A DNA stretch of 61,108 nt from Calditrichota bacterium. GTDB taxonomy: Bacteria > Calditrichota > Calditrichia > Calditrichales > J004. Both the position numbers and the translations under genes were made by a program. The DNA is taken from contig JAJRVW010000010.1 of the NCBI GenBank assembly GCA_024277115.1, forward strand, positions 1 through 61,108, read 5' to 3'. Position 1 is the stretch's first letter; each line of letters begins with the position of its first letter. The notes below the pieces were generated by a model. The model made no database searches and was not told the DNA's origin. It worked only from the letters and a program-made list of their open reading frames with translations. Shown piece after piece: positions 11,676 to 55,166 of the stretch.

Positions 11676-12944
11676 TTAATCGGAAGTTGTCTTAGTTTTT
11701 TTTAATGTTGAATCGATATAATTTAGTATTCTTTTAGTGCTTCCACTATTTTTTAAAGCAAATTGTTCGGCCTTTTCACCAATTAGCTCACAATATTTTT
11801 TATTCTTTAAAAGTTTTTGTACTGCCTCATAAAAAGCGGAAGCATCATGTACAACAAGTGCGCCTTCTGCCTTGTTTAGGCTAATGGCCTCGAAAGAGTT
11901 TTTATAAACTGGCCCATATATTACCGGCACTTTATAGATCGCAGGCTCCAACACATTATGGATACCCTGCTGAAAACTGCCGCCCACGTAGGCAATATCA
12001 GCATATTTATACATGTCTGCCAATAAACCGATTTTATCAATAACAAGTGCCCTGCCAGCCGGGTTTATTTTTTCACTATAAAAATCATATTCGAGCTCGC
12101 CCGAAAAAACAAGGAGCTTTTTAATAATCTCTTCTGTGGGTTGATGCGGGATAATTAATACTTTAAGATCAGGATTATTTTGGAGCAATTGCGGTAAATT
12201 TTTTAATACATGTTCTGCATCCTGTGGCCATAAACTTCCAAAAACCAGGATTTTTTTCTCCTTTCGCCAGGCAGGATCAAGTAGTTCAAGGTTTTCAGAG
12301 TTTTCTTTTCTTATTAAAACCTGGTCAAATTTTGTATCGCCACTTATTTCGGTATTTGTGCAACTAAAGGTTGTTTTAAATCGATTGTCATCTTCGGCGC
12401 TTATGGTAAAAATTTTGTCAAAGGTTCTATACGCTTTGCCTAAAATCGCCTTTGCCAAAAAGGACTGCCGACTCGAAGAAGCGCTTAACGAGGCATTTAT
12501 CAATGCTGTTTTGATGCCTCTTTTTTTTGCAATGCGCATTTGATTGGGCCACACGTCATGCTTGGAGATAAGTAAAACTTCACAATTAATGGCCGCATAA
12601 AATTTATTCCATAACCAGCCAAAATCATACGGTAAATAAAAAAATTCCTTTACACCCGGGAATGATTTTACATTTTCATAACCCGACGGAGAAAAGAAGG
12701 TAATAAAAATATTTACATCCAAATCCGTATTAATTTTGTTTATAACGGGCTTAATATGTTCAAATTCGCCCATGGATGCAGCATGGATTAAAATACTTTT
12801 TTTGGTGGTTTTAAGGTTTTTAATTTTTATTAGGATTTTGTTCCGCTGAAATATTGGGTCTCTTAATTTCTTAGAAAACAACGTCACTAAATTTGCAATA
12901 ATAAATAGCGCCGGAAGGATAAAAGTGGAATAGATAAAATTCAT
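11676..12944 (-). CDS. waaA: 3-deoxy-D-manno-octulosonic acid (Kdo) transferase
   Basis: A 422-residue inner-membrane-associated glycosyltransferase that adds Kdo to lipid A precursor. It has an N-terminal hydrophobic anchor (about 5-22), then the family block ILIHAASMGEFE with the catalytic-type Glu, a central SKHDVWPN block corresponding to the usual ExxxWPN motif, and a C-terminal glycosyltransferase half with VYGPVYKNSFEA. In most members the central block reads 'ETELWPN'; here it is KHDVWPN, a lineage variation. It overlaps the GT9 gene by 4 bases, forming an LPS core operon with it. Number of Kdo residues added cannot be predicted. Confidence 0.88.
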   Translation of the reverse strand: MNFIYSTFILPALFIIANLVTLFSKKLRDPIFQRNKILIKIKNLKTTKKSILIHAASMGEFEHIKPVINKINTDLDVNIFITFFSPSGYENVKSFPGVKEFFYLPYDFGWLWNKFYAAINCEVLLISKHDVWPNQMRIAKKRGIKTALINASLSASSSRQSFLAKAILGKAYRTFDKIFTISAEDDNRFKTTFSCTNTEISGDTKFDQVLIRKENSENLELLDPAWRKEKKILVFGSLWPQDAEHVLKNLPQLLQNNPDLKVLIIPHQPTEEIIKKLLVFSGELEYDFYSEKINPAGRALVIDKIGLLADMYKYADIAYVGGSFQQGIHNVLEPAIYKVPVIYGPVYKNSFEAISLNKAEGALVVHDASAFYEAVQKLLKNKKYCELIGEKAEQFALKNSGSTKRILNYIDSTLKKTKTTSD

Positions 12945-13966
12945 TTAGCCACCAACTTTGTTTTTACTTCTTCAAAAACGCGCGCTGTTGATGTTAGCCG
13001 CATACATTTAAAATGTCCAAGGGGACATTTGCCTCGGCCAACGTGCGAACATGGCCTGCACCATAAATCATTTTCAACTATTGCCGCATCAGCACGATAT
13101 GGGAAAAAACCCAATTCTCTTACCGTTGAACCAAATATGGCGACAACTGCTTTTTTTAATGCAACAGCCATGTGCATTAATCCGGAATCGTTACTAATTA
13201 GGCCGGTTGATTCTTTTATTATTGAGGCCGATTCCAATAAGCTCAATTTGCCACTTAACGCAACAACATTTTTTATATTTTCTATTTCTTTTAACAGGCT
13301 CTTTTCTTGAGGGCTGCCCAAGATAGCAATTTTGTAATCTGTCTCTTCACTGATCTTTTTAATCAATTTTTGATAATTTTCGATGGGCCACATTTTTGTA
13401 AAATGTGCAGCTCCCGGTCCAATACAAATATACTGTACCGGGATAAGATCATATATTTTTAAAATTTCAAGGTTATTCTCTGCATTATTTGTGGACAAAA
13501 ACAATTCCAGGCCCTGGCCATCATCCTGAATATTAAATTTTTTTCCCACCTCTAAATAACGTTCAGGAATTGATTTTATGGTTTTATATAAATTTATTTT
13601 CAAAAAAACCAAAGCAGCACGTCTAATTTTACTCTTCTTTATTTTAGAAATATGCGCCGATTTTAACCCTGCCAAGAGTCTGTTTGTACGCAGATTATTG
13701 TGCAAATCAAAAATTAAATCATATTTTTCTTTTTGAATAATACGATTTAAATCTTTTAAGCCAGACATTTTTGTGGCAGAATCAAAAGCGATAATTTTAT
13801 TGATGTATGGATTATGGCTCAGGAGGGATTGAAATTCTTTTTTTACAATATAGGTGATGCGCGCATTGGGATATTTATTTCGGACCTGGCGGATAAATGC
13901 GGTGGTCAGTAAAATATCGCCGATTGAACTTAGACGTAAAATCAATATTTTTTTTACATCCAACAT
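12941..13966 (-). CDS. Glycosyltransferase family 9 (heptosyltransferase-like)
   Basis: A 341-residue GT9 enzyme of the ADP-heptose:LPS heptosyltransferase family. It opens with ILRLSSIGDILLTTAFIR, typical of WaaC/WaaF, and has the C-terminal half motifs GPGAAHFTKMWP and SNDSGLMHMAVALKK followed by the AIFGST loop. The C-terminal Cys-rich patch (LWCRPCSH, KCPLGHFKCM) is also usual in this family. Neighbouring waaA and the later gmhB support a role in LPS inner-core assembly. It starts 2 bases after the polyprenyl synthase stop. Confidence 0.85.
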   Translation of the reverse strand: MLDVKKILILRLSSIGDILLTTAFIRQVRNKYPNARITYIVKKEFQSLLSHNPYINKIIAFDSATKMSGLKDLNRIIQKEKYDLIFDLHNNLRTNRLLAGLKSAHISKIKKSKIRRAALVFLKINLYKTIKSIPERYLEVGKKFNIQDDGQGLELFLSTNNAENNLEILKIYDLIPVQYICIGPGAAHFTKMWPIENYQKLIKKISEETDYKIAILGSPQEKSLLKEIENIKNVVALSGKLSLLESASIIKESTGLISNDSGLMHMAVALKKAVVAIFGSTVRELGFFPYRADAAIVENDLWCRPCSHVGRGKCPLGHFKCMRLTSTARVFEEVKTKLVAK

Positions 13967-13968
13967 TT

Positions 13969-14961
13969 TTACATCGACCGTTCAATTACATATTCTACAA
14001 ATTTTAAAAGTGCCGATTTTACATCGCTATCTGGATAAAGGTTTAAAACATCTTTTGCCTCTTTGGCATATTTATCCTGCATTGCCTGCGCGTAAGTAAT
14101 TCCATTGTATTTTTCTGCAAAAATGATTATTTCTTTTATCTCTTTTCGTTTAACCCCTTTTTTGATTTTCTTTTTTATAATGGAAACTTCTTTTTTGGAT
14201 GCTTCCTTAAACGCATGGATTAGAGGCAGGGTTAGTTTTTTATCTTTAAAGTCATTGCCAATTGGTTTGCCAACAAGTTTTTGGTTGCCATAATAATCAA
14301 GTAAGTCATCGTGAATTTGAAATGCTATCCCAAGGGACTCACCAAATTTTTTCATATTTTTACGATCGTTTTCATCATCGCTTGACGTTATTGCGCCCAA
14401 CTCTGAAGCCGCACCAATCAATGCAGCGGTCTTATCAGAAATCATGCCTAAAAATTCTTCTTCGGTAATATTGAGTGAGCGTGATTTTTCAATTTGCAAT
14501 AACTCGCCTTTACTGAGCCTTTTCGATGAATCGGCCAGAATATTCATTACTTCCAGGCTACCGGTTTTTGTTCCGCCAATTAAACATTTTGAAAGTAAAT
14601 AATCACCAATCAACACAGCAATCTTATTTTTCCATGCCGCATTTATTGATGGAAATCCCCGTCTTAATTCTGCCTCGTCAACGACATCGTCATGAACAAG
14701 CGTTGCTGAATGAAGCATCTCTACAATGGATGCCACGATGTAGGTGTTATTATTTGGCGTACCGGTAAGTTTTCCACTCATTAAAACAAGCAGAGGGCGA
14801 AGATTTTTCCCTTTGTGTTTTACAATATATTTAACGACCGTATCAATCAGTGTCACATTGGACGACATGATTTCTTTAAAAACACGATCGTATTCTTTTA
14901 ATTCAGCAAGAAAGGGTTTTTGAATTTCTTTAATTCTGCGGGTCATATAAAATAGTTTCAA
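13969..14961 (-). CDS. Polyprenyl diphosphate synthase
   Basis: A 330-residue trans-isoprenyl diphosphate synthase that condenses isopentenyl diphosphate onto allylic diphosphates to make the quinone or carrier side chain. Both Asp-rich motifs are present: VHDDVVDEAE (first DDxxD) and HDDLLDYYG (second). GKNLRPLLVLMSG matches the substrate-binding GKxxRP. It looks like the octaprenyl/heptaprenyl (IspB/HepT) branch, but chain length cannot be read off safely. The reading frame opens with TTG at 14961; ATG at 14946 (MTRRIKEIQ) is an equally plausible start. Confidence 0.87.
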   Translation of the reverse strand: MKLFYMTRRIKEIQKPFLAELKEYDRVFKEIMSSNVTLIDTVVKYIVKHKGKNLRPLLVLMSGKLTGTPNNNTYIVASIVEMLHSATLVHDDVVDEAELRRGFPSINAAWKNKIAVLIGDYLLSKCLIGGTKTGSLEVMNILADSSKRLSKGELLQIEKSRSLNITEEEFLGMISDKTAALIGAASELGAITSSDDENDRKNMKKFGESLGIAFQIHDDLLDYYGNQKLVGKPIGNDFKDKKLTLPLIHAFKEASKKEVSIIKKKIKKGVKRKEIKEIIIFAEKYNGITYAQAMQDKYAKEAKDVLNLYPDSDVKSALLKFVEYVIERSM

Positions 14962-15028
14962 TTTTTGACAAAAAGGAAAGTAACACTTCTATATACTTTT
15001 TTCAATTTTGATTTTAAGATGTACAAAA

Positions 15029-15754
15029 TTACTTCTTTTTCTCTTTTCGTGAAATAAAGTATAATAAAAATATTGTTATTTCATATAGTAGGATCAAGGG
15101 TACTGCTAAAAACATTTGTGTCATCGGGTCTGGCGGAGTAAGGATAGCGGCTGCCACAAAAATAGTAACAATGGCATATCTGCGATACTTCTTTAAAAAA
15201 GCCGGGGTTATTAATCCCATTTTGGCTAAAATTATGCTAATTACAGGGAGCTGGAAAACAATGCCAAAAACAATCAGTAACCGAAGTAAAAAACCAAAAT
15301 AAAAATCTATTGAAATATTATTACTTACATTCTGTGGTGCCAGTCCCAAAAAGAAATCCAACGCATAAGGCACAATAATGTAATAGGCAAAAGAGGCGCC
15401 AATTGAAAAACTTACCATCGAAAAGATAATTATGGGCCAAATATATTTCCGCTCTTTTTGGTGTAAACCCGGTGACAGGAATGACCAAATTTGAAATAAA
15501 ATTACCGGAATGCTTAAAAGAACACCTAGAATTAAAGCTATTTCTAATTTTATAATAAATACAGCCTGAACTTTTAAAACTTGTAAACTGATCTGCGCCT
15601 CTACTTTTGAAGCCGGTTCCAAAAGCCAGGTTAATACATAATCTGAAAATAAAAATGCAATTATCGTAAAAATTACAACACTTGAAAGAGCTTTGATTAT
15701 GCGCCATCTAAGCTCCTCTAAATGATCAAGGAAAGGCATTTCGTTTTCGTGCAT
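15029..15754 (-). CDS. tatC: Sec-independent protein translocase TatC
   Basis: A 241-residue polytopic inner-membrane protein that recognises twin-arginine signal peptides. The N-terminal cytoplasmic motif FLDHLEELRWRII is the TatC signature, and six membrane segments follow in the usual spacing, with the ILTPPDPMTQ loop between the last segments. No tatA or tatB lies nearby. It is downstream of glyA but separated by a strong terminator, so it probably has its own promoter. Confidence 0.93.
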   Translation of the reverse strand: MHENEMPFLDHLEELRWRIIKALSSVVIFTIIAFLFSDYVLTWLLEPASKVEAQISLQVLKVQAVFIIKLEIALILGVLLSIPVILFQIWSFLSPGLHQKERKYIWPIIIFSMVSFSIGASFAYYIIVPYALDFFLGLAPQNVSNNISIDFYFGFLLRLLIVFGIVFQLPVISIILAKMGLITPAFLKKYRRYAIVTIFVAAAILTPPDPMTQMFLAVPLILLYEITIFLLYFISRKEKKK

Positions 15755-15767
15755 TTTATGATCCTAC

Positions 15768-15794
15768 AAAAAAAAAGCCCCGCAGGCGGGGCCT
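15768..15794 (-). terminator. Rho-independent terminator after glyA
   Basis: A 7-base GC stem (gccccgc / gcggggc) with a 2-base loop is followed, reading on the minus strand, by a run of T (the plus-strand aaaaaaaaa at 15768-15776). It lies just beyond the glyA stop and before tatC, so it separates the two transcripts. Confidence 0.88.
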
Positions 15795-15809
15795 TAAAAA
15801 ATGTAAATA

Positions 15810-17096
15810 TTAGTAAAGTTGAAAGTTTTTATTTATTTCACGGACAGCAAGGGCCGTTTTCTTTATTACATCTTCAGAATCAACATTGGATAAAACATCA
15901 TTAATAAACCCGGCAATGGTTTTCATTTCGTTTTCTTTCATCCCTTTGGTAGTCATCGCGGCAGTTCCTAAACGTATACCGCTTGTTACAAAGGGTGACC
16001 GAGTATCAAACGGTACCATATTTTTATTGACTGTGATCCCGGAAGCATGCAGGGCATTTTCTGCTACTTTCCCCGTTATATTTTTATCTGTTAAGTCTAC
16101 CAAAAAAACATGGTTATCAGTCCCGCCGGAAACAATTTTATAACCCATCGATTTTAATTCTTCCGAAAGCGCCTGCGAATTATTTATAACTTGCTGGGCA
16201 TAAGTTTTAAATTCGGGCTTTAGCGCTTCGCCAAATGCAACTGCTTTTGCAGCAATAATATGCATTAAGGGCCCGCCTTGAATTCCCGGCATAACCTGGC
16301 TGTCTATCAACTCAGACATCATTTTAACCCGTCCGGATTTTGGAGCAACTTTGCCTAATTTATTTTCATAATCTTTGCCCAACATAACCATGCCACCGCG
16401 CGGGCCACGTAAGGTTTTATGGGTGGTTGTGGAAACAACATCACAAAAAGGAAGTGGGTTTGGATGCAAGCCGGCCGCAACCAATCCTGCCGGATGGGCG
16501 ATATCACAAAAAAGTACAGCATCAACCGAATCGGCAATTTCCCTAAATTTTTCAAACTCATAGTGGCGTGAATAGGCACTTGCCCCTACAACAATCATTT
16601 TGGGCTTGTTCTCTTTTGCTTTAGAGCTTACAACATCCATGTTAATTTTACCATCCTGCTCATCCACACCGTACGATACAAAATTATATAAACGACCGGA
16701 AAAATTTACCGGTGATCCGTGAGTGAGGTGCCCGCCATGTGCCAAATCCATACCAAGGATTGTATCGCCCGGATTTAGATACGTAAAGTACACCGACATA
16801 TTTGCCTGGGAGCCAGAGTGTGGTTGCACATTTGCATACTCACATCCAAAAAGTTCCTTGGCCCTGTCGCGTGCAATGTTTTCGGCAATATCTACAAATT
16901 CACAGCCACCATAATATCTTTTTCCCGGATAGCCCTCGGCATATTTGTTTGTAAGAACAGAACCGGCGGTTTCAAGAACGGCTTTTGAGACAAAATTTTC
17001 AGAGGCAATTAATTCTATTGTATTATTTTGCCTGTCGCGTTCCTGTTCAATAGAATCAAAAATTTGTTTGTCTTGTTTTTTTAAATTTTCCAACAT
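15810..17096 (-). CDS. glyA: Serine hydroxymethyltransferase
   Basis: A 428-residue cytoplasmic PLP enzyme interconverting serine and glycine with transfer of a one-carbon unit to tetrahydrofolate. The PLP lysine is K227 in [14 protein letters not shown]. The N-terminal [11 protein letters not shown] and the QPHSGSQAN blocks are family hallmarks. Length is typical for the bacterial enzyme. The gene begins 2 bases after the rpiB stop, so both are probably co-transcribed, and its transcript ends at the hairpin at 15768-15794. Confidence 0.96.
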
Positions 17097-17098
17097 CC

Positions 17099-17539
17099 TT
17101 ATAACCCGGTTAATTTTGAGATCAGTTCCAGCCTTTTTTCATGACGGCCACCTTCAAAAGAGGTGGATAGCCACGTTTCAACATAAATTCGTGCATCTTT
17201 TTCATCGGTCATGCGTGAGCCCAAACATAAAACATTGGCATTATTATGCAGGCGGCTCAACTCGGCTGTTTCTTTGTTGTAAACCAAGGCCGCGCGGACC
17301 CCTTTTACTTTATTGGCAGATATACTCATTCCGATGCCTGTTCCACAAACAAGGATTCCCATATCGGCCTCACCTTTTAAAATAGTTGTGCCTACTTTAT
17401 AAGCAAACTCCGGATAGTCTACAGATTCTTCTTTAAAGGTACCTAAATCTGTAAATGCGATTTCTTTTGAACTTAGATATTCTTTAATACTTTCTTTTAA
17501 CAAATATCCTGCATGGTCTGCGCCAAGAACTACTTTCAC
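17099..17539 (-). CDS. rpiB: Ribose-5-phosphate isomerase B
   Basis: RpiB interconverts ribose 5-phosphate and ribulose 5-phosphate in the pentose phosphate pathway. The protein opens with [10 protein letters not shown] and contains the [14 protein letters not shown] block with the active Cys. The open frame reaches back to ATG 17578, but family alignment places the true start at GTG 17539 ([12 protein letters not shown]), giving 146 residues, the usual length. That GTG shares its first G with the TAG stop of the upstream TPR gene (TAGTG), suggesting translational coupling. The galactose-6-phosphate isomerase LacAB subfamily is related but unlikely here. Confidence 0.88.
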
Positions 17540-18819
17540 TATTTTATCCCTGTTTTCCCAACCAAAAAGCTGTAACATGGGCTTTTAATTTTAGCATTGG
17601 GATTCATAAATATGTCTTCTTTTGTCCGGATAAAAGGTTTTAAGTTTCTAATTTTAGTTTTTGATTTTGACCTGTACGCTACATCTTTTTGTGCCTGTAG
17701 ATAAATTTTTTGAGCTTCTTCGTAAGCGATCTTATCTTCCAGTTGCATTTTTCCGCCACGCTTGTCCTGACAGTGTGCAACCATCGCTTCAACCATTTCA
17801 CCACGAATGATATAAGGTTTTCCATAACCCGGCTTTTTACGAATTGCCTTTGAAATCCAATTATTGGCTGTTTTAAATTTATATAAAGTCGAATAATTTT
17901 CAGCAATCGAAAGCATAAAATCGGCGTTATCCGGCTCCATCATCAAACACGAATTTAGGTCATGAATGGCGCTGTCAAATCTACCAAGATTTTCACAGGC
18001 CGTGGCCCGTAATTTATAGTCAGCAGTTTTGGCTTCTTTTTTAATGATAACATTTAAAGGCTCCATGGCTTTTTCGTATTCGCCTTCTTCAATGGCATAC
18101 TTAGCAAAATTTCGTCCCGCTTTAAAATTTGTCTTATCCTGGTTCCATGCTTTTTCCCAAGCAGCTAATGGACTTTCACCCGATGCCGCAATATATCTCG
18201 CAATGGTATCTTGAGCTTTTGCATTACTTGGATCGAGGTCTATTACTTTTTGCTGTGTTTCAATCGCTTTTTCATACTCTTGCGATTTTGAATACAAAAA
18301 AGCCAGTGTAGATAAGTAAGCGATACTCTTCGGATTCTTTGCTACCATTGCTTCATAATGTGGAATGGCACATGAAGATTTACCCAATTCCTTTTGTAAA
18401 AAGCCGGCATAATAATGTAATTTTTGGTTGTTTGGAAATTTCTCCAAACCTTTGTAACAAGCAATTAAGGTGCTATCTATTTTTTTCTCTTTAAAATAAC
18501 TTTCTGCGATTTTACCAATTGCCCGGCTTGAGCTTTTGCTTTTATTTAAAAAGACTTTCCACAAATAGGGCAAGGCTTCTTTATAATTTTTATTTTTAAA
18601 ATATTCACTACCAAAGCTATAAAGTTGGCTTAACTCTCGCGCATCTGTAATTTTTCCGGCTAGCGAATCGAAAGGAACGGCAAGGCTTTGTGGAATACAA
18701 ACAACTTCCTCTTCAGTATTTTCCTCTTCATCAAGAATCTCAAAATCATCTTGAGAGAACGCTTGTCCTGCAAAAAACAGAATAATTAAAAAAAGTCCTA
18801 GTATTTTTATCTGTAACAT
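17539..18819 (-). CDS. Exported TPR-repeat protein
   Basis: A protein of about 426 residues with signal peptide (MLQIKILGLFLIILFF...FSQ) followed by an acidic linker and roughly eight to ten tetratricopeptide repeats across residues 60-390. ATG 18819 is chosen because it gives a proper signal peptide and has a GCGAGGG ribosome-binding site; an in-frame ATG at 18858 would put 13 residues ahead of it. It follows the barrel-like protein gene by 14 bases and precedes rpiB with a stop/start overlap. Likely a periplasmic scaffold working with the barrel protein and lipoprotein encoded upstream; function unknown. Confidence 0.75.
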   Translation of the reverse strand: MLQIKILGLFLIILFFAGQAFSQDDFEILDEEENTEEEVVCIPQSLAVPFDSLAGKITDARELSQLYSFGSEYFKNKNYKEALPYLWKVFLNKSKSSSRAIGKIAESYFKEKKIDSTLIACYKGLEKFPNNQKLHYYAGFLQKELGKSSCAIPHYEAMVAKNPKSIAYLSTLAFLYSKSQEYEKAIETQQKVIDLDPSNAKAQDTIARYIAASGESPLAAWEKAWNQDKTNFKAGRNFAKYAIEEGEYEKAMEPLNVIIKKEAKTADYKLRATACENLGRFDSAIHDLNSCLMMEPDNADFMLSIAENYSTLYKFKTANNWISKAIRKKPGYGKPYIIRGEMVEAMVAHCQDKRGGKMQLEDKIAYEEAQKIYLQAQKDVAYRSKSKTKIRNLKPFIRTKEDIFMNPNAKIKSPCYSFLVGKTGIK

Positions 18820-18833
18820 ATTTTTCCCTCGCT

Positions 18834-20066
18834 TTAGTCTACTAAATTTACAAACCATAATTCATTTGCGCTTATTGAAAAGCTAAATCCAACAATAGTC
18901 TCTTCCAAAAAATTCTTTGACAGGTTCCCACGTTTTGAGATAAATCCTGCAAAATCTATTTTAGATTTAAAACGCTGAATCGGTAACGAAATTCCTGCTG
19001 TGATCCCCACTTCATTTACTTTGTTTCGATCAAGGTCATTATAAGTTGAGAGTTGATTGTAAAACCCACCAAGTCGCAAATCAATTTGCTGAATATACTT
19101 TACAAATTTACGGCTACTACCCTTCCGTTCTAAACCAAACCCCAAATGATAAAACAGTTCATGATTGCCGACTTTTTTATTATCGATTTTATAGCCGTTT
19201 TTCCAATCTTGCCATACTAAATCCATACCTAATGAATATGTTGGATTAAAACTATATTCAAGGCCTAAATTATACTCTGCGGGTATTTCCATCTCCAATA
19301 CACGTTCTTTATTTAAAAAATCGGATGTACTTTCTGCTGATCTTGTTATCTGGCCAAGTACCGTAGGCCTAACCACTATACCAAAATTAAAATTCTCTAC
19401 CGGTGTACCAAAAAAACTTAAAATGATTCCATTTCCGGCTACCTGTGATTCAGATTTAAGGCTTACAGAAGAACCTAAATTATCATCAATATTAAATAAA
19501 ACGTTTTCCGTTAGTTTACCAAAAGTAAATTCATAGCCTATCCCAAAAGAATAGTTTTCTATCGGCTTGTAAACCAGATTAATATTTGCCTTACTAATTC
19601 CGCCGTTTATATAAATATTTTCTGATATATCTTCACCTATTTGTTTCGACTTGTTTTCAAGTCTCTGTTCCACAGATGTAAAAGGCTGTAAACCAACGCC
19701 TAATATAAGTTTTCGTGGTTGTAGAGGGATCGCTAGAAAAACACCAGCAAAATTTGCATTGTCAAAGTAATATTTTTCTGTTTTATTTTTACCCAAATAA
19801 CCATTATAACCTAAATTCCATGAAAATGTTGTTCGAGAAATATTTGTCCATGTTGCAAAATTACGGAAATTCAATTGCACGGAATCGCTTTTTGCCACCT
19901 CATACGAGCTTGCGAGTCCGGAAGACGAATAAGGAAGTTGAATATTGCCGAGGCTATTATTTACTAAGCCAAATTGAGATTCACCAGCCTGGCCAATCCC
20001 TATTAAGATTAATAATGATAAAATGTATTTAGTTAGTTTCAAACGATTTATCCTAGTTTTGTGCAT
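18834..20066 (-). CDS. Outer-membrane beta-barrel protein
   Basis: A 410-residue protein with an N-terminal signal region (about 12-31) and many alternating-pattern strands with aromatic residues, consistent with an outer-membrane barrel of the PorV/FadL/OmpP1 kind. Stretches such as YSFGIGYEFTFGKL, NFGIVVRPTVLGQI and YSLGMDLVWQDW look like barrel hairpins. Its start overlaps the lipoprotein gene by 14 bases. Membership in the OmpP1/FadL-like superfamily is a guess from appearance; no conserved motif was identified with certainty. Confidence 0.7.
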   Translation of the reverse strand: MHKTRINRLKLTKYILSLLILIGIGQAGESQFGLVNNSLGNIQLPYSSSGLASSYEVAKSDSVQLNFRNFATWTNISRTTFSWNLGYNGYLGKNKTEKYYFDNANFAGVFLAIPLQPRKLILGVGLQPFTSVEQRLENKSKQIGEDISENIYINGGISKANINLVYKPIENYSFGIGYEFTFGKLTENVLFNIDDNLGSSVSLKSESQVAGNGIILSFFGTPVENFNFGIVVRPTVLGQITRSAESTSDFLNKERVLEMEIPAEYNLGLEYSFNPTYSLGMDLVWQDWKNGYKIDNKKVGNHELFYHLGFGLERKGSSRKFVKYIQQIDLRLGGFYNQLSTYNDLDRNKVNEVGITAGISLPIQRFKSKIDFAGFISKRGNLSKNFLEETIVGFSFSISANELWFVNLVD

Positions 20067-48242: not shown

Positions 48243-50207
48243 TTATTGAAGGATAACATCGTCTATCTGGATATTATCCACAACATCCATACCTTTTATA
48301 ACTTTTCCAAATGCGGTGTAACTTCCACGCAAATGGGGTTGTTCTGATTGACAAATAAAAAACTGGCAACTTCCGGTGTCAAAGCCCGAAGTCGCGATCC
48401 CGATGGTGCCCCGTTCAAAATCTAAAAAATCTTCTGAAGGAACAAGATAACCTGCGCCGCCCCAGCCATTTCCTTTGGGATCACCGCCCTGTATAACAAA
48501 ATCTGCGATCACACGATGAAAAATTAAATTATTATAAAAACCGGATTCTGCCAGTTCGAGAAAGTTTTTAACGGTTATAGGGGCCGCTTTTGAAAAAAGT
48601 TCTAATTTAATTTCGCCCTTATTGGTGGTAATTTCAACAAATATATTTTTTGACGGTAAAGCCAGGATAGAATCTACGGTTAAGTAGGCTGGCATACTTA
48701 GTCCTTTTTTATTTTCACTAAGCAAAAAATTTGGATACTGCGCATGAAATTGAGTGCGTACTCTTTGTGTACTAATATTTTGTGTCAATGTGCTCAGTTC
48801 CTCTTCAGAAAGCTTTTCGTTTTTTGCCGCTAAAAGTTTGAGTATGAGTTCCTGGGTTTCAAACTCATCGGGTTGGTTAAACTTTTGAAAAGCGTCAATT
48901 AACAGATTTGTGCTTACAATTTTTTTCTTTGTTTTTTGCCAATCCAGTACACTAAACAAGACGGAATAATAATCTGTCTCCATCAAGTTCTTAATATCGT
49001 TAAAAGTAATCCGCCCTTTTTTGTTTAAAATTGAAAAGGCTAAATAAACCAGTCGTTTCTCATTTACGGATAAAAAACTTTTTATAGTATTGATTGTAAA
49101 CCGGCTATCTTTTAAAGCAAGTGCATTGATTAAGTCCTCTTTAAATGAAATGGTGCCTTTGTCCAGGTTTTGCTGGATTAAACGGTAGCCAATTTTGGGT
49201 GAATTTTGTGTAATTAAATTAATGAGCTGACCCTTTGTGGTAAAATCATTTTCTGTTTTAAAGTGGTTTAATAAATACAAAGTTGCCTTCTCCTGAAGGA
49301 GCGCTGCGTAGGTTTTATAGGCTGTAACTTTTAAATAACTTTTTGATTTACCGATTATATTTTTTATCAGAGTTTCATCGCTGCTATCCGCAAAAACGCT
49401 AAAACTTTTAAGGGCATACATCTTGTTTTGCCAAAGTGTATCATTTAAGATGATATCCTTTAGTGAGGCGTGTACATTTTTTATTATTGCGGAATCCAAT
49501 CGTACTTGCAGAAAAGACTTTTGATTGGCTGTCAGTTTTGCCAATGCTTTTAAATAGTATTTACGTGTGGTGAATTTCGTTTTTGTAAGGTTTTTGGTAA
49601 TATTTAAAAAATCGGATGTGTCCACACTTTGTAATATAAAATATGCGTTTTCCTTTAGGCCAGAGTAAGTCCATGTGGAATCAGAAAGGCGCTGTTTAAT
49701 TAAATGGACATCCATTTTTTTACGAGCAAAAATCCCGGCTGCTTGCAAAGCATGTTTTCGCAATGCCGGGTTGTCTAAGGCTCCAATTATTATTGGAATA
49801 GATATTTTGCCCCCACATTTTTCGAGGGCACGGATAATATTTGCTTTAGCGGTATTGGAACTAATTTTGTTATATAAATCAATTAAAATTTGTTCAGCCT
49901 TATTTGAACCGGTTTGGCCTAAAGCAAAGATTTGGGCATCCAAAACGGCATCGTCTGTTTCGTTTTCCAACTGATGTTTTAAGAAAGGAAGCAGGCTGTC
50001 ATTTTTTGTTTTGGCAATGGCATTGAGTGTTTCGATCTGATATTCCACAGGCAAACTATTATATAACTTTTCCCAGGTTTTTGGGTTGCCATTTCTGGAA
50101 ATTTCGAGCTCTTTAATTTTACGTGCAGCGGATATCTCAGCATCATTATCATTACAAGAGGCTGTTAAAAAGACGAGTAAAAAAATAAAAAAGAGGCGAA
50201 TGTACAC
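48243..50207 (-). CDS. Lipoprotein: HEAT-repeat scaffold fused to cyclophilin peptidyl-prolyl isomerase
   Basis: A 654-residue lipoprotein. The leader ends in the lipobox TASC (Cys18). Residues about 45-500 are made of HEAT-like alpha-helical repeats (for example SLLPFLKHQLE, IIGALDNPALRKHAL). Residues 524-654 are a cyclophilin domain: VEITTNKGEIKLELF, the catalytic IFHRV block with Arg565, QGGDPKGNGWGG, and the FGKVIKGMDVVD end. The isomerase would act in the periplasm or at the inner face of the outer membrane. The cyclophilin-plus-HEAT fusion is unusual in length, but the isomerase core looks intact. No partner genes give a clue to its client. Confidence 0.88.
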   Translation of the reverse strand: MYIRLFFIFLLVFLTASCNDNDAEISAARKIKELEISRNGNPKTWEKLYNSLPVEYQIETLNAIAKTKNDSLLPFLKHQLENETDDAVLDAQIFALGQTGSNKAEQILIDLYNKISSNTAKANIIRALEKCGGKISIPIIIGALDNPALRKHALQAAGIFARKKMDVHLIKQRLSDSTWTYSGLKENAYFILQSVDTSDFLNITKNLTKTKFTTRKYYLKALAKLTANQKSFLQVRLDSAIIKNVHASLKDIILNDTLWQNKMYALKSFSVFADSSDETLIKNIIGKSKSYLKVTAYKTYAALLQEKATLYLLNHFKTENDFTTKGQLINLITQNSPKIGYRLIQQNLDKGTISFKEDLINALALKDSRFTINTIKSFLSVNEKRLVYLAFSILNKKGRITFNDIKNLMETDYYSVLFSVLDWQKTKKKIVSTNLLIDAFQKFNQPDEFETQELILKLLAAKNEKLSEEELSTLTQNISTQRVRTQFHAQYPNFLLSENKKGLSMPAYLTVDSILALPSKNIFVEITTNKGEIKLELFSKAAPITVKNFLELAESGFYNNLIFHRVIADFVIQGGDPKGNGWGGAGYLVPSEDFLDFERGTIGIATSGFDTGSCQFFICQSEQPHLRGSYTAFGKVIKGMDVVDNIQIDDVILQ

Positions 50208-50349: not shown

Positions 50350-51516
50350 ATGGCCACACAATCTAAGGGCTCCATTTTGTATAAAATAATAATTCTTGTG
50401 TTAATAGTAGGACTGATACTTGTAATATTAATTCCTGCTAAAATATGGAAACAAGAAAAACAAGAAATGAAATCGGCCCAATTTAATATGGAAAGTATTT
50501 ATGAAGCCGAAAAATTTTATCACCGATTAACAAATACCTATACAACGGATCAGGAGCAGTTATTATCCGTGATAGGCCAGGATTCTACTTTAAAGCAAGC
50601 CCAACAACTTGTAAACCATACACAGAATCTAAAAAACCTCCTCGATAGTTACCAAAATATTCCTTATTTAAATAACCTTCTTATTGTTGATCAAAATCTA
50701 TCTACAATATCCAATGACTTAAATAGTAATGAACGTTGGTTTAAGAGCCGTGAAGACATCCAATCCCAGGCGGAAAAGTTAAATCAGGAATTAAGGACAT
50801 TAAATAGCGATCTTGAATTTCCAAACTATGTTGAAACAGCAAATATTTTAGACACACTCTATCAGTTAAGAAGGGATCTATCGGATTATAACTTACAAAC
50901 AGCAGCATCCCGCTGTGCAGATTTATCCGAAAGATTGAATGGGTTACTACCAAACGTGGAACTTGATAATCTTCAAGCTAAGTGGGCCCAACTTTTTAAA
51001 GACCTTACTACCTTCCGGAAAGACCTTGATGCGACAGATATTAGCAAGCAAACAAGTGTTGCTGCGAGGATTAGAGAATTTAGCTTAACCATTGATGAAA
51101 ACATGCAATTGTTGAAGTCCATCAATAAAGCAGAAAACACAAAGAAAGCTGAAGAAATCAGCCATTTATTATCTGAACAATATAATACATTTCTTCAGGA
51201 TTTTGTGATTACGAGTAAACGGGCATTATATAAATTGGCCAAAGAAGACTCGATGGTATTATATATTTCCAAGAATAATTTTATTAGTCCGGTCAACGGT
51301 CAGCCGTATGTTCTGGGAATTACACCGGATTCTTCGGATATTAAAGTAGAAAGCCCAATGCTTCTCGATGAACTACTTGCAATGATAGAAGCAGATGCTG
51401 GTACTATATCTACATTTGATTTTATTCCACACTATATGGCTTATCTGGATACACTTAAATCAATCCACCAAAAGGTTTGGCTATTAAAAAGTTATTACGA
51501 CGAAATATTGACATAA
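50350..51516 (+). CDS. Membrane-anchored coiled-coil protein, first part
   Basis: A 388-residue protein not recognised as a known family. A basic start and one membrane helix (about 10-30) are followed by SIYEAEKFYHRLTNTYTTD (about 47-65), which resembles the N-terminal region of type IV pilin-like or pseudopilin proteins, then long coiled coils (about 80-290), then a beta-like segment (FISPVNGQPYVLGI) reminiscent of pilin C-terminal loops. The frame ends at TAA 51514-51516, but similar coiled-coil sequence continues in the next frame from about 51477. It has a GGAGGA ribosome-binding site. It starts the cluster that leads to the PilM-like gene. Confidence 0.72.
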   Translation: MATQSKGSILYKIIILVLIVGLILVILIPAKIWKQEKQEMKSAQFNMESIYEAEKFYHRLTNTYTTDQEQLLSVIGQDSTLKQAQQLVNHTQNLKNLLDSYQNIPYLNNLLIVDQNLSTISNDLNSNERWFKSREDIQSQAEKLNQELRTLNSDLEFPNYVETANILDTLYQLRRDLSDYNLQTAASRCADLSERLNGLLPNVELDNLQAKWAQLFKDLTTFRKDLDATDISKQTSVAARIREFSLTIDENMQLLKSINKAENTKKAEEISHLLSEQYNTFLQDFVITSKRALYKLAKEDSMVLYISKNNFISPVNGQPYVLGITPDSSDIKVESPMLLDELLAMIEADAGTISTFDFIPHYMAYLDTLKSIHQKVWLLKSYYDEILT

Positions 51517-52031
51517 CCGTGAAGAATAAAGAACTGGAAGAAAGAATATCCAAGTATGAGAACGGTAGTGAGTTTTCTGCAGCTAATGATTTACGCCAAT
51601 TTGTCGACTTAGTGCATAACAGTAAAAGTTTTAGTGACCTTAAAGAAGGTATCGAAAAAGCACGTAATGCGGTAAGTATTATTAACCAAATTTACAGTGA
51701 AAACCTTTTTGCAAATATTGATTCGGTACATAAATCTGTTATTGCGGATTTAGAAGAATATAACACAATTTTGTCTGGCATTCGCAGACTTCCGAAAGGG
51801 GTCGAAAAGTTTGAAAACGAAATATCTCAACTTGAAACAGTTCTTTCAAATATTAAAAAGAAAACCGCTTCAACAGACTCAGAAATGTTAGCTAAAGTTC
51901 AGGCCAGCCTTGAAGACGCGCTATTATTTGCGACGGAAGGCAAGTCTATAAGAGTATACGGTGTATTCTGTAAAAATCAGCAAAACTATGGATATATAAA
52001 TCAATCAACAAAGAGCTGGGAAGAAAAATAA
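51477..52031 (+). CDS. Coiled-coil continuation (possibly frameshifted end of the preceding gene)
   Basis: A 184-residue reading frame overlapping the previous gene's end by 40 bases in the -1 direction. It could start at TTG 51477 or GTG 51519, but neither has a convincing ribosome-binding site. From KNKELEERISKYENG it continues the coiled coil of the upstream protein, then ends in a short domain with a Cys and aromatic residues (VFCKNQQNYGYIN, SWEEK). One continuous protein of about 550 residues, broken by a -1 shift near 51500-51520, is the simpler reading. A separate gene is the alternative. Confidence 0.6.
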   Translation: MAIKKLLRRNIDITVKNKELEERISKYENGSEFSAANDLRQFVDLVHNSKSFSDLKEGIEKARNAVSIINQIYSENLFANIDSVHKSVIADLEEYNTILSGIRRLPKGVEKFENEISQLETVLSNIKKKTASTDSEMLAKVQASLEDALLFATEGKSIRVYGVFCKNQQNYGYINQSTKSWEEK

Positions 52032-52067
52032 TTTTCTCAAAGGAAGAATCAATTTCCTTTCTTAAAT

Positions 52068-52955
52068 ATGAATAATACATTTAGTTTATCTTTTTCTGAT
52101 AATTCGTTTCAGTTGGTGCATTCAACAAATGATGGCGCTGAGAGCAAATTGGTTTCCTGCAGCGAGTTTTTATATCCCCGGCCAGTTCCGATCGATGAGG
52201 TGTTTTCCGATGCGAACATACAGGCCGTTACCGATTATGTGAACAGTCTAAAGACAGAAAATAATCTTCAAGAAGTTGATATTGTTTTTTCCCTCCCCTT
52301 TAATTATGCCCATATTAAAAGAGTTGCATATCCAACGGGTTCTGAAAAAATAGTAAAGCGGGGTCAGATCGAATGGGAATTAGGATATGTTCTCTCTGAG
52401 AATATTAAAAAATATAAAATATCCGTATTAAAGGATTCCAAAAATACTGACTACTCCGAAGCATTGATTGTTGCGATAAATAAAACACTCATACAATGTT
52501 TACAATCTATTGCTGAAAAAAGCGGTACACGTATTTCCGGTGTTTTGTTAAACTGCTTTGCGTTGGAAAACTATCTTGATAATAGCATCGCTTTTAGCCC
52601 GGACCAAAACTATATTTTTCTTAAAATTGGCGAAAAATACATAGAACAACATTTCTTTTTAGGCAAAGAGTATCTTACTTCTTATATCGATTCAGTAAAC
52701 GACTTACAAAATCGTACAAAAGAAGAAGTTGTTTTGGAATTATCCAGCGAACGTAGTAAACAGGTAGAAAGCCTGGCACAACAAATGGGTAATACCAATA
52801 ATTTTGATTTGGTAATTTATGGGAATTCCTTTTCTGAAAGTCTTAAAGATACGCTAAAAAATGGCCTTTCTCTATCTGTTGAATACGCCACCATTGGTAG
52901 CTATCCAGAAAAAGACGGGTATAAATTTATTGAAGCATGGGGCTCTATTCTATAA
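52068..52955 (+). CDS. PilM-like (ASKHA-fold) protein
   Basis: A 295-residue cytoplasmic protein with no membrane segment. Its N-terminal strand pair (FSLSFSDNSFQLVHS), the central SLPFNYAHIKRVAYP and WELGYVLSEN, and a final ASKHA-like region resemble PilM of type IV pilus machines, an actin-like adaptor that binds the PilN cytoplasmic tail. It is about 50 residues shorter than usual PilM, and the nucleotide-binding motifs are weak. The next gene encodes a protein with PilN/PilO shape, which supports the pairing. Assignment is by fold-like appearance and context only. Confidence 0.5.
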   Translation: MNNTFSLSFSDNSFQLVHSTNDGAESKLVSCSEFLYPRPVPIDEVFSDANIQAVTDYVNSLKTENNLQEVDIVFSLPFNYAHIKRVAYPTGSEKIVKRGQIEWELGYVLSENIKKYKISVLKDSKNTDYSEALIVAINKTLIQCLQSIAEKSGTRISGVLLNCFALENYLDNSIAFSPDQNYIFLKIGEKYIEQHFFLGKEYLTSYIDSVNDLQNRTKEEVVLELSSERSKQVESLAQQMGNTNNFDLVIYGNSFSESLKDTLKNGLSLSVEYATIGSYPEKDGYKFIEAWGSIL

Positions 52956-52981
52956 ACTCAGTTGTATACTGAGGAGGACTA

Positions 52982-54121
52982 ATGGCAAAATACAACTTAT
53001 TAGAAGATGATGACATCTTTGATGAAGATGATGACCTTACTGAAAACGATCCGATTGCCGGTTCGGATGAACCTTTACCGGATACAGGTATATCGGATGA
53101 TATAGATATTGAAATAGATGAAGACTTATTAAATATTGAACCAACGGATGAACTTGATGACCAGGGTTTTGAAGAAGAACCGGCCATAGATAACCTTCAG
53201 GAAGATATTGCTGCAGAACTTGACCCCGATCCACAAGAACTTGAACCTGAAATAAAAGAAGAAAAACCTGTTGAAGCAGATAAGCCATTTTTAACAGATG
53301 ATTTTGAAGACGATAAACAATCTGGTATAAATTATAAGCCAATTGTTATGATTGGCTCAGTCATAATAATTCTTATTCTAATGTATGTAGCTGTAGATAT
53401 CTGGGTTTTATCAGATTCCTCCCAGCCTGTGGCGGATACAGAACAGGTTGCCGAACCTACCAAAGAATCTGTTGCAGAAAAAAAAGCAGCGCTGGAAAAA
53501 GAGCAGAAACTGGTTTTCCTCTCAAAAATTTCCGGTAAAACAAGTGCCGATATTGCCGTTGTAAACAACGCTGTTAAAAATGCCCAATCCTCCGCAAAGC
53601 TTTCCTCATTATTATTATATGGCGAGTCCTTTTTGTTTGAAGTATTTGGCTCGGATAGAAATGAAATTGCCCGTGTAAATATGAGCTTAAAAAGTAATAT
53701 GCCCGGAAATAACTTTTCTGTAATTTCTTCACAGACACGGCCCGGCGCCAATGGCGGTGTTTTTGGGCTCTTTAAAGCTTCCCTCTCTTCTTCCGGTGGG
53801 AATGCCGCTGGAAAAAATGTTCAAATCAGTTTTAATTCGATTAATGATTTTGAAAAATGGCTTAAAAACACATCGTCTTCAAATGGTTTAAAAGTTAAGT
53901 CATTGTCCAATAAGTATGTAAAAGAAGAAAGTAAGTTTAGAAAATTTGAATTGGAAACAACTTTAACCGGATCTTTGGATGCCTGCAATACTTTCCTTAA
54001 AAAACTATCTGCAAACGGTAGCCAGGTGAATATCCGGAAACTCAACCTGGTAGCATCAGACCAAAAAAGTTTTCAATCAAAAAAATACCAGCTTAAGCTG
54101 ATTTTAGAAATTTTTGTGTAA
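52982..54121 (+). CDS. PilN/PilO-like membrane protein
   Basis: A 379-residue single-pass inner-membrane protein. Residues 1-115 form a strongly acidic cytoplasmic tail (Asp/Glu-rich), residues about 120-143 are the membrane helix, residues about 150-175 a short coiled coil and the rest (about 185-379) a periplasmic domain with the beta-alpha pattern of PilN/PilO or GspL/M-type ferredoxin-like folds (ending KKYQLKLILEIFV). A strong ribosome-binding site (GAGGAGG) precedes ATG 52982. It would be the partner of the PilM-like protein just upstream. The acidic tail is much longer than in standard PilN. Confidence 0.6.
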   Translation: MAKYNLLEDDDIFDEDDDLTENDPIAGSDEPLPDTGISDDIDIEIDEDLLNIEPTDELDDQGFEEEPAIDNLQEDIAAELDPDPQELEPEIKEEKPVEADKPFLTDDFEDDKQSGINYKPIVMIGSVIIILILMYVAVDIWVLSDSSQPVADTEQVAEPTKESVAEKKAALEKEQKLVFLSKISGKTSADIAVVNNAVKNAQSSAKLSSLLLYGESFLFEVFGSDRNEIARVNMSLKSNMPGNNFSVISSQTRPGANGGVFGLFKASLSSSGGNAAGKNVQISFNSINDFEKWLKNTSSSNGLKVKSLSNKYVKEESKFRKFELETTLTGSLDACNTFLKKLSANGSQVNIRKLNLVASDQKSFQSKKYQLKLILEIFV

Positions 54122-54124
54122 GTC

Positions 54125-54682
54125 ATGCGGATTATCTCCGGTGTTTATAAAGGCCGAAGGTTTCAAGCAGGAGAAGACCTTTCTATAAGGCCTACAACCG
54201 ACCGGGTTAAAGAATATATTTTTAATATCTTGCAGGACTTTCAGGAAAATAAAATTGTTGCAGATATATTTTCAGGAAGCGGCAATCTCGGTTTCGAGGC
54301 GCTTAGCCGTGGCGCACAGCATGTAACCTTTGTTGAGAAAAATATTTCTTCTATTCGGGTTTTAAAATCAAATATCTCCAGTTTTTCTTTAGCGCAATCC
54401 CAATTTAATATTGTTCATAAAACGGCCTAAGATTTTGCAAAGCAGGATCATGGCAAGATTGAACTCTATTTTTTAGACCCACCATTTGTGTATCCGAAAC
54501 TACAAGACCTTATCGATACATTGTTAAAATCAGATGATTTTAAAATTGGCAACCTGATGGTTCTAGAGCATGAAGTAATAAACCCAATCGCCAAAGAAAG
54601 TCCGTACTACAATCTGCTAAAGCAAAAAAAAATAAGCCGGAGTTTAATTTCTTTTATTGAAAAAAGGATAGAAAATGAGTGA
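54125..54682 (+). pseudogene. rsmD: 16S rRNA (guanine-966-N2)-methyltransferase RsmD, interrupted by in-frame TAA
   Basis: The first 101 codons give MRIISGVYKGRRF, RPTTDRVKEYIFNIL and the SAM-binding DIFSGSGNLGFEALSRGA of RsmD, but a TAA at 54428-54430 follows GlnPheAsnIleValHisLysThrAla. The same frame then resumes with DFAKQDHGKIELYFLDPPF, the family's catalytic DPPF motif, through to the stop at 54680-54682. Combined length is about 185, as normal. The last part overlaps the coaD start by 8 bases, as often seen for rsmD-coaD. A nonsense mutation, base-call error or readthrough must be considered; the two halves clearly belong together. Confidence 0.87.
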
Positions 54683-55166
54683 AAAAAAAATTTCTATTTA
54701 CCCGGGCACGTTTGATCCCATTACGCGTGGCCATATTGATATAATTTATAGGGCCAGTAAAATTTTTGATGAGGTGATCGTAACGCTGGCCGTAAACCAA
54801 TCTAAAAAACCGCTCTTTACAATTGATGAACGTATGGTCATGATACATGATGCCATCGATGAGTTCTCCAATGTGAAGGTGGCAGAATTTGATGGTTTAT
54901 TGGTGGATTTTGCCAGGGATAATTCTGCCCAGGTTATCATCCGTGGCTTACGTGCTATCTCCGATTTTGAATATGAATTTCAGATGGCGTTAATGAACAA
55001 AAAATTATCTCCCGAAATTACAACCGTATTTTTAATGCCCAACGAAAAATATACTTATTTGAATTCTACAATTGTTAAAGATGTAGCAAAATTTAATGGA
55101 AATGTTGATAACTTTGTCACTAAATTAGTCGCTAAAGAACTGACCAATAAATTTAGTGCACAATAA
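54675..55166 (+). CDS. coaD: Phosphopantetheine adenylyltransferase
   Basis: A 163-residue enzyme of CoA synthesis that adenylates 4'-phosphopantetheine. It starts SIYPGTFDPITRGHIDII with the TxGH nucleotide-binding motif, and the RGLRAISDFEYEFQMA block and the later YLNSTIVKDVAKF follow as in all CoaD. ATG 54675 lies inside the end of rsmD and is preceded by an AAGGATAG-type ribosome-binding site. Length is typical. Confidence 0.95.
   Translation: MSEKKISIYPGTFDPITRGHIDIIYRASKIFDEVIVTLAVNQSKKPLFTIDERMVMIHDAIDEFSNVKVAEFDGLLVDFARDNSAQVIIRGLRAISDFEYEFQMALMNKKLSPEITTVFLMPNEKYTYLNSTIVKDVAKFNGNVDNFVTKLVAKELTNKFSAQ

Follow-up and report, generated by a model that had tools for sequence, protein, structure and literature searches.

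A pilin-like, PilM-like and PilN-like gene cassette beside rsmD and coaD in Calditrichota: a possible motorless relative of type IV filament machinery

Proteins of the PilM/N/O type are usually regarded as parts of type IV pili or type II secretion systems (T2SS). A stretch of Calditrichota DNA of 61,108 nucleotides, referred to here as the window, carries a PilM-like and a PilN/PilO-like gene behind reading frames with pilin-like segments, and no T2SSE ATPase, PilC, peptidase or secretin gene is found in the window. The initial annotation, which had been made from the letters of this stretch, had noted this lack correctly; pilus/T2SS-like loci were found on other contigs of the same genome. 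What such genes are for when they stand next to the housekeeping genes rsmD and coaD is the question raised by this locus.

Translation confirmed the four adjoining frames that had been described on the plus strand at 50350-54121, although comparison with relatives reduced them to three genes, named A, C and D here. The frames 50350-51516 and 51477-52031 are halves of a single gene A of about 565 aa (50350-52031). In this assembly a frameshift near 51471-51478 cuts the gene in two; in 27 relatives it is unsplit and encodes one protein, of about 560-590 aa where complete. The downstream rsmD is interrupted here by an in-frame TAA (54428-54430), after which the remaining RsmD protein continues in frame. 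For these two lesions, less than 3 kb apart in an assembly of 255 contigs, assembly or sequencing errors are just as likely as mutations. The coordinates and frames below are given uncorrected for both.

50350..51516, + strand: gene A, N-terminal part, 388 aa as read, pilin-like and frameshifted; its N-terminus matches GspG/PilA profiles
50350..50532, + strand: gene A leader MATQSKG|S and N-terminal membrane helix, from the class alignment (helix 10-62 in both predicted models)
51477..52031, + strand: gene A, C-terminal part in the other frame, where the A profile continues (positions 376-561); ends in NxG...SWE
51951..52028, + strand: gene A C-terminal signature, ending NYGYINQSTKSWEEK, common to class members and short homologues elsewhere
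52068..52955, + strand: gene C, PilM-family (ASKHA-type) protein of 295 aa lacking the phosphate-1 ATP loop, from the PilM profile match
52982..54121, + strand: gene D, PilN-like bitopic protein of 379 aa with NLL motif, acidic cytoplasmic tail, one membrane helix and periplasmic domain
52982..53002, + strand: gene D N-terminal MAKYNLL, counterpart of the PilN INLLP motif, from the pattern match in class and outside homologues
53336..53398, + strand: gene D single predicted membrane helix, from sequence and at the same position in relatives
53846..54112, + strand: gene D T2SSM_b/PilO-like domain, residues 289-377, from Pfam and profile matches
54125..54682, + strand: rsmD, conserved downstream neighbour, with the in-frame TAA at 54428-54430
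54675..55166, + strand: coaD, conserved downstream neighbour (conserved synteny)

Gene A is the best conserved of the three. Over its N-terminal ~60-80 residues the window protein is matched by the type II pseudopilin GspG (1.5e-5), and the N-terminus of the A family profile is matched by the Myxococcus type IV pilin PilA (9.1e-7). In the alignment of the window's class (Calditrichia), the leader G and S ahead of the membrane helix are invariant, and a simple pattern detects the G|S leader in 25 of the 27 sequences, K occupying position +5 in 14 and E in 6; all 27 carry the C-terminal NxG...SWE motif. The G|S leader is absent from the A proteins of four other loci (L079, L081, L082, L137). Structure prediction, which had been proposed as a check, was run for A and yielded a confident model for a Calditrichia member (L045, mean pLDDT 91), in which a long N-terminal helix (10-62) is joined by two large insertions, both helical, and by two small beta elements; a short homologue of 167 aa (L077, pLDDT 80) was predicted with the same N-terminal helix and beta elements and without the insertions. 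Nevertheless, Foldseek returned no significant structural match for either model, and the pilin relation of A is therefore drawn from its N-terminus, the models giving no confirmation of a pilin fold for the whole domain. The pilin-like segments assigned to the first protein thus stand for the N-terminal part, whereas the C-terminal frame does not encode a separate protein and is largely a helical insertion of A.

The assignment of the second protein as PilM-like was borne out by profile comparison. The class C profile matched Myxococcus PilM (PDB 3jc8) with an E-value of 9.5e-11, the Pfam family PilM_2 was matched by 12 of 26 class members, and a profile built from C homologues of other lineages matched all three solved PilM proteins (3jc8 with 7.4e-31, plus 5eox and 2ych, the two other E-values being 2e-14 and 2e-12). 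C is probably not an ATPase, because the DxGxxxK phosphate-1 loop was missing from all 39 cassette C proteins; it was present in the ordinary PilM of L092, which served as positive control. A PilM_2 match on contig C116 of the same genome was considered as a second PilM and rejected, since its neighbours are FtsZ, FtsQ and Mur genes and the protein is FtsA. DUF3822, the Bacteroidota gene located before rsmD, could not be linked to C: the C profiles match neither DUF3822 nor its solved structure, and no linking account was found in the open-access literature.

Gene D starts with MAKYNLL, after which come an acidic tail, a single membrane helix and, further on, a T2SSM_b domain, in agreement with the single-pass protein of PilN/PilO shape described initially. 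The class D proteins mostly begin with M-x-x-[IVYF]-[ND]-L-[LMI], 20 of 27 passing a strict pattern, the N-termini of outside homologues mostly read M-x-x-[IVL]-N-L-L, and a control PilN starts with MMIRINLLP. D of the window matches Pfam T2SSM_b at 1.3e-5, above the curated cut-off; T2SSM_b is matched by 9 of 26 members, and PilO was matched in profile comparison (2.9e-4). D hence combines the INLLP-type N-terminal motif and one membrane helix of PilN, and the motif predicts PilM binding. The sequence profiles of C and D confirm the PilM-like-then-PilN/O-like gene order.

The cassette is widely conserved, which excludes a chance occurrence. A was found in 38 of the 40 Calditrichia genomes and not in G009 and G014, whose examined stretches are free of any cassette part, and the full order A-C-D-rsmD-coaD occurs in all six class families (f1-f5, f6). 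Outside the class, where 385 genomes were searched, the stronger matches are A proteins of two sizes, short ones of about 167-320 aa and long ones of about 430-560 aa, most of which lie in the same cassette. The usual order there is grpE, dnaJ, a gene for a ComEA-like protein (HHH_3), A, C, D, rsmD and coaD. The named outside loci come from a CoaD-based contig scan, and the following statements hold among the matches listed: the same gene order is seen in KSB1, Caldithrix sp. RBG_13_44_9, an FCB-group bacterium and Neomarinimicrobiota; Ignavibacteria and Kapaibacterium loci contain C without recognisable A or D; a Gemmatimonadetes locus contains ComEA, C and one further gene; and the A, C and D profiles found nothing near coaD in Firmicutes, Verrucomicrobia, Acidobacteria, Nitrospira or proteobacterial loci. 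In five lineages (L082, L085, L086, L087, L089), C and D are replaced by one protein composed of a PilM-like part, a membrane helix and a further domain. The first part of this fusion matches C in profile comparison with 97.5% probability, and its second part has no recognisable match to D. In no locus examined does the cassette adjoin a complete pilus operon. The synteny kept is thus the one with the housekeeping genes rsmD and coaD, which the initial annotation had named as neighbours, and confinement of the cluster to the side of an ordinary type IV pilus operon was not seen in relatives.

Pilus and T2SS genes of the same genome are distributed over contigs C12, C32 and C64, each of which has a T2SSE ATPase. 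PilC/GspF (T2SSF) matches were obtained only on C32 and C64, giving two PilC, and there are two prepilin peptidases (C32 and C64) and two secretins (C12 and C64). The secretin locus of C64 shows PilN, PilO and T2SSC matches, while in that of C12 a weak PilM_2 match precedes unassigned genes whose size and position fit. With both secretin loci thus equipped with PilM/N/O-type genes, the cassette is an additional set. Among 19 cassette genomes, the T2SSE ATPase was above the cut-off in 18, PilC and ComEC in 17 each, and the prepilin peptidase in 16. The motor-free case is one draft genome, G236 (0.9 Mb, 98% complete), in which T2SSE ATPase, the PilC family, prepilin peptidase and ComEC all gave no match above the cut-off, and in which A and a PilM-like fusion are kept before rsmD and coaD. 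The A protein of G236 has no G|S leader, as expected where there is no peptidase.

We favor, at a probability of roughly 45%, the reading that A, C and D make up a stand-alone, motorless inner-membrane module derived from type IV filament machinery. It starts from gene content, homology, leader, motifs, synteny, class-wide conservation and the genome without a detected pilus motor, the last of which points to a motorless complex. In such a module, the PilM-like C would bind, on the cytoplasmic side, the NLL tail of D, and D would span the membrane once and hold A with its periplasmic domain. We infer both contacts from ordinary systems, in which PilM binds the cytoplasmic tail of PilN and PilN/PilO domains bind pilins (PMC4471445). 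A would be anchored by its N-terminal helix, with a domain (predicted to be very large and helical in Calditrichia) projecting into the periplasm, and no motor, platform protein or secretin would be reserved for the module. Polymerisation of A into a long pilus is unlikely, and where ComEA adjoins, the module may help to hand over or take in DNA, or some other substrate, at the inner membrane. Counting for the module are the 38 of 40 class genomes, the shared order elsewhere, the PilM, PilN and pilin profile matches, the extra set and G236, as well as the one-protein replacement of C and D in five lineages, which follows the GspL plan. Counting against it, the ATPase in 18 and the peptidase in 16 of 19 cassette genomes make borrowing of a motor possible in most, and the G|S leader in 25 of 27 proteins and E at +5 in 6 fit processing, or even polymerisation; moreover, the motor-free genome is a single draft, the second half of the fusion is unmatched to D, and A has no Foldseek match. 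More doubtful is a wider proposal, according to which a so far undescribed branch of the type IV filament superfamily, lacking a motor, is conserved across FCB-type phyla; its PilM-PilN pair would not build filaments but permanently anchor a pilin-like protein, which would form a fixed structure in the periplasm.

Because ComEA adjoins the module in other lineages, a role in DNA uptake is the main rival, which we nonetheless consider rather unlikely. A would then be a pseudopilin and C-D the assembly platform of a competence apparatus that works with ComEA and ComEC and borrows its ATPase, PilC, peptidase and secretin from the other pilus loci. At most outside loci (L073, L074, L075, L078, L079, L080, L081, L083-L089 and, among the matches listed, L129, L130, L133, L137, L140, L155 and L184), the gene directly before A or C encodes a ComEA-like HHH_3 protein that has a membrane helix at its N-terminus, a recurrence that points to DNA handling; 36 of 40 class genomes possess a ComEA-like protein, and ComEC is found in 17 of 19 cassette genomes. 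However, ComEC also occurs in 10 of 14 control genomes and is widespread among bacteria generally, ComEA does not adjoin A in L082 or in the Calditrichia loci examined (in the genome of the window it follows dnaJ on a different contig from the cassette), and grpE, dnaJ, rsmD and coaD, none of them competence genes, are equally constant neighbours. G236 likewise speaks against a competence platform, as it retains A and the PilM-like fusion without ComEC, with A following dnaJ directly and no ComEA between them. The idea of a joint loss of ComEA and ComEC is drawn from G236 only, since L074 and L080 have ComEA. Among the Bacteroidota, the transformable species Riemerella anatipestifer requires a periplasmic HhH protein for transformation (PMC8459023); that protein is not known to belong to such a cassette.

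The cassette could also consist of spare pilus or T2SS parts, with C-D as an alternative PilMN(O) and A as a large minor pilin built by the PilB/PilC of the C12, C32 and C64 loci. We regard this as improbable: the genome does hold ATPases and two each of PilC, peptidase and secretin, and A retains a prepilin-type leader, but the secretin-bearing loci possess their own PilM/N/O-type genes, no complete pilus operon lies beside the cassette in the loci examined, and G236 keeps its version with no pilus motor detected. That the genes are pseudogenes decaying from an old pilus locus is very improbable indeed, the frameshifted A and the rsmD stop codon being set against an A that is one open gene in 27 relatives, is present in 38 of 40 class genomes and is the best conserved of the three, and against an otherwise intact rsmD, which makes assembly error as likely. 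Of the reduced or repurposed pilus/secretion platform suggested initially, the secretion part could not be established; the ComEA neighbour recurring in other lineages points to DNA handling, and the genome with no detected pilus motor to a motorless complex.

If the module reading is true, a pilin-PilM-PilN module without ATPase, platform and secretin would mean that this subcomplex can serve another purpose. No account of the A-C-D gene set was found in the open-access literature, to which the search was directed. A type IV filament system has been defined for survey purposes by an ATPase, an inner-membrane platform and a major pilin in one cluster (PMC6668835); the cassette has a pilin-like subunit, judged by the N-terminus of A, and neither the ATPase nor the PilC/GspF platform in the cluster, so that surveys demanding all three would miss it. 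The cassette is also a tangible candidate for a role in the envelope or in DNA uptake among Calditrichota, KSB1, Neomarinimicrobiota and related groups.

Compared with known systems, the cassette resembles ComEA-linked DNA-uptake pili in the ComEA-like gene that adjoins it in most outside lineages, and differs in that ComEA lies elsewhere in Calditrichia and is absent from the G236 locus, with no comG/pil operon alongside. The N-terminal helix of A, its mostly retained G|S leader in the class and the pilin-sized short homologues (about 167-320 aa) recall type IV pilins and pseudopilins (PilA, GspG, ComGC), whereas the +5 glutamate is limited to a minority, the leader is missing in some lineages, helical insertions extend A to 565-743 aa, a C-terminal NHGxIxxGxxSW-type motif is present, and there is no significant structural match to the pilin head. 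With type II secretion the cassette shares a single GspL-like protein in place of C and D in some lineages, the T2SSM_b match of D (GspL-GspM) and the GspG match of the A N-terminus, while GspC, GspD, GspE, GspF and the peptidase are lacking in it. From the PilM-PilN-PilO alignment complex of type IVa pili it is distinguished by the absence of adjoining PilP/PilQ, PilB and PilC, of the phosphate-1 loop in C, and by the long acidic tail of Calditrichia D, the pilin-like gene upstream and rsmD-coaD downstream; it resembles this complex in the PilM-family C, in the PilN-type motif, one helix and PilO/GspM-type domain of D, and in the order of PilM followed by PilN.

The pilin-like gene A is accompanied by a divergently oriented gene on its upstream side, both in the window and at many Calditrichia loci, and rsmD follows the cassette.

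Window 48243-50207, divergent from gene A: fusion of a HEAT-repeat protein with a prolyl isomerase of the cyclophilin type
Window 54125-54682: rsmD, with an in-frame TAA at 54428-54430

The rsmD reading frame resumes past this stop codon in the same frame, and an assembly error or a real lesion are both possible. Upstream of rsmD, the PilM-like gene C is retained in Ignavibacteria and Kapaibacterium loci (L132, L133 and L140), while neither A nor the PilN-like D is recognisable at these three loci. Since the A homologue of a Neomarinimicrobiota locus (L155:3114-5345) comprises 743 aa, large insertions in A also occur outside Calditrichia.

Elsewhere in the same genome, pilus and T2SS-like genes lie on other contigs.

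Contig C64, L069:238-2832 and 11755-19290: a pair of large proteins containing YD/RHS-like sequence repeats
Contig C32, L071:11368-13653: PilB-type ATPase (T2SSE, MshEN) with a C-terminal response-regulator receiver domain

The two repeat proteins stand on either side of the C64 T2SS-like genes (secretin, PilN-, PilO- and GspC-like). On C32, the receiver domain at the ATPase C-terminus suggests that phosphorylation directly controls a pilus motor.
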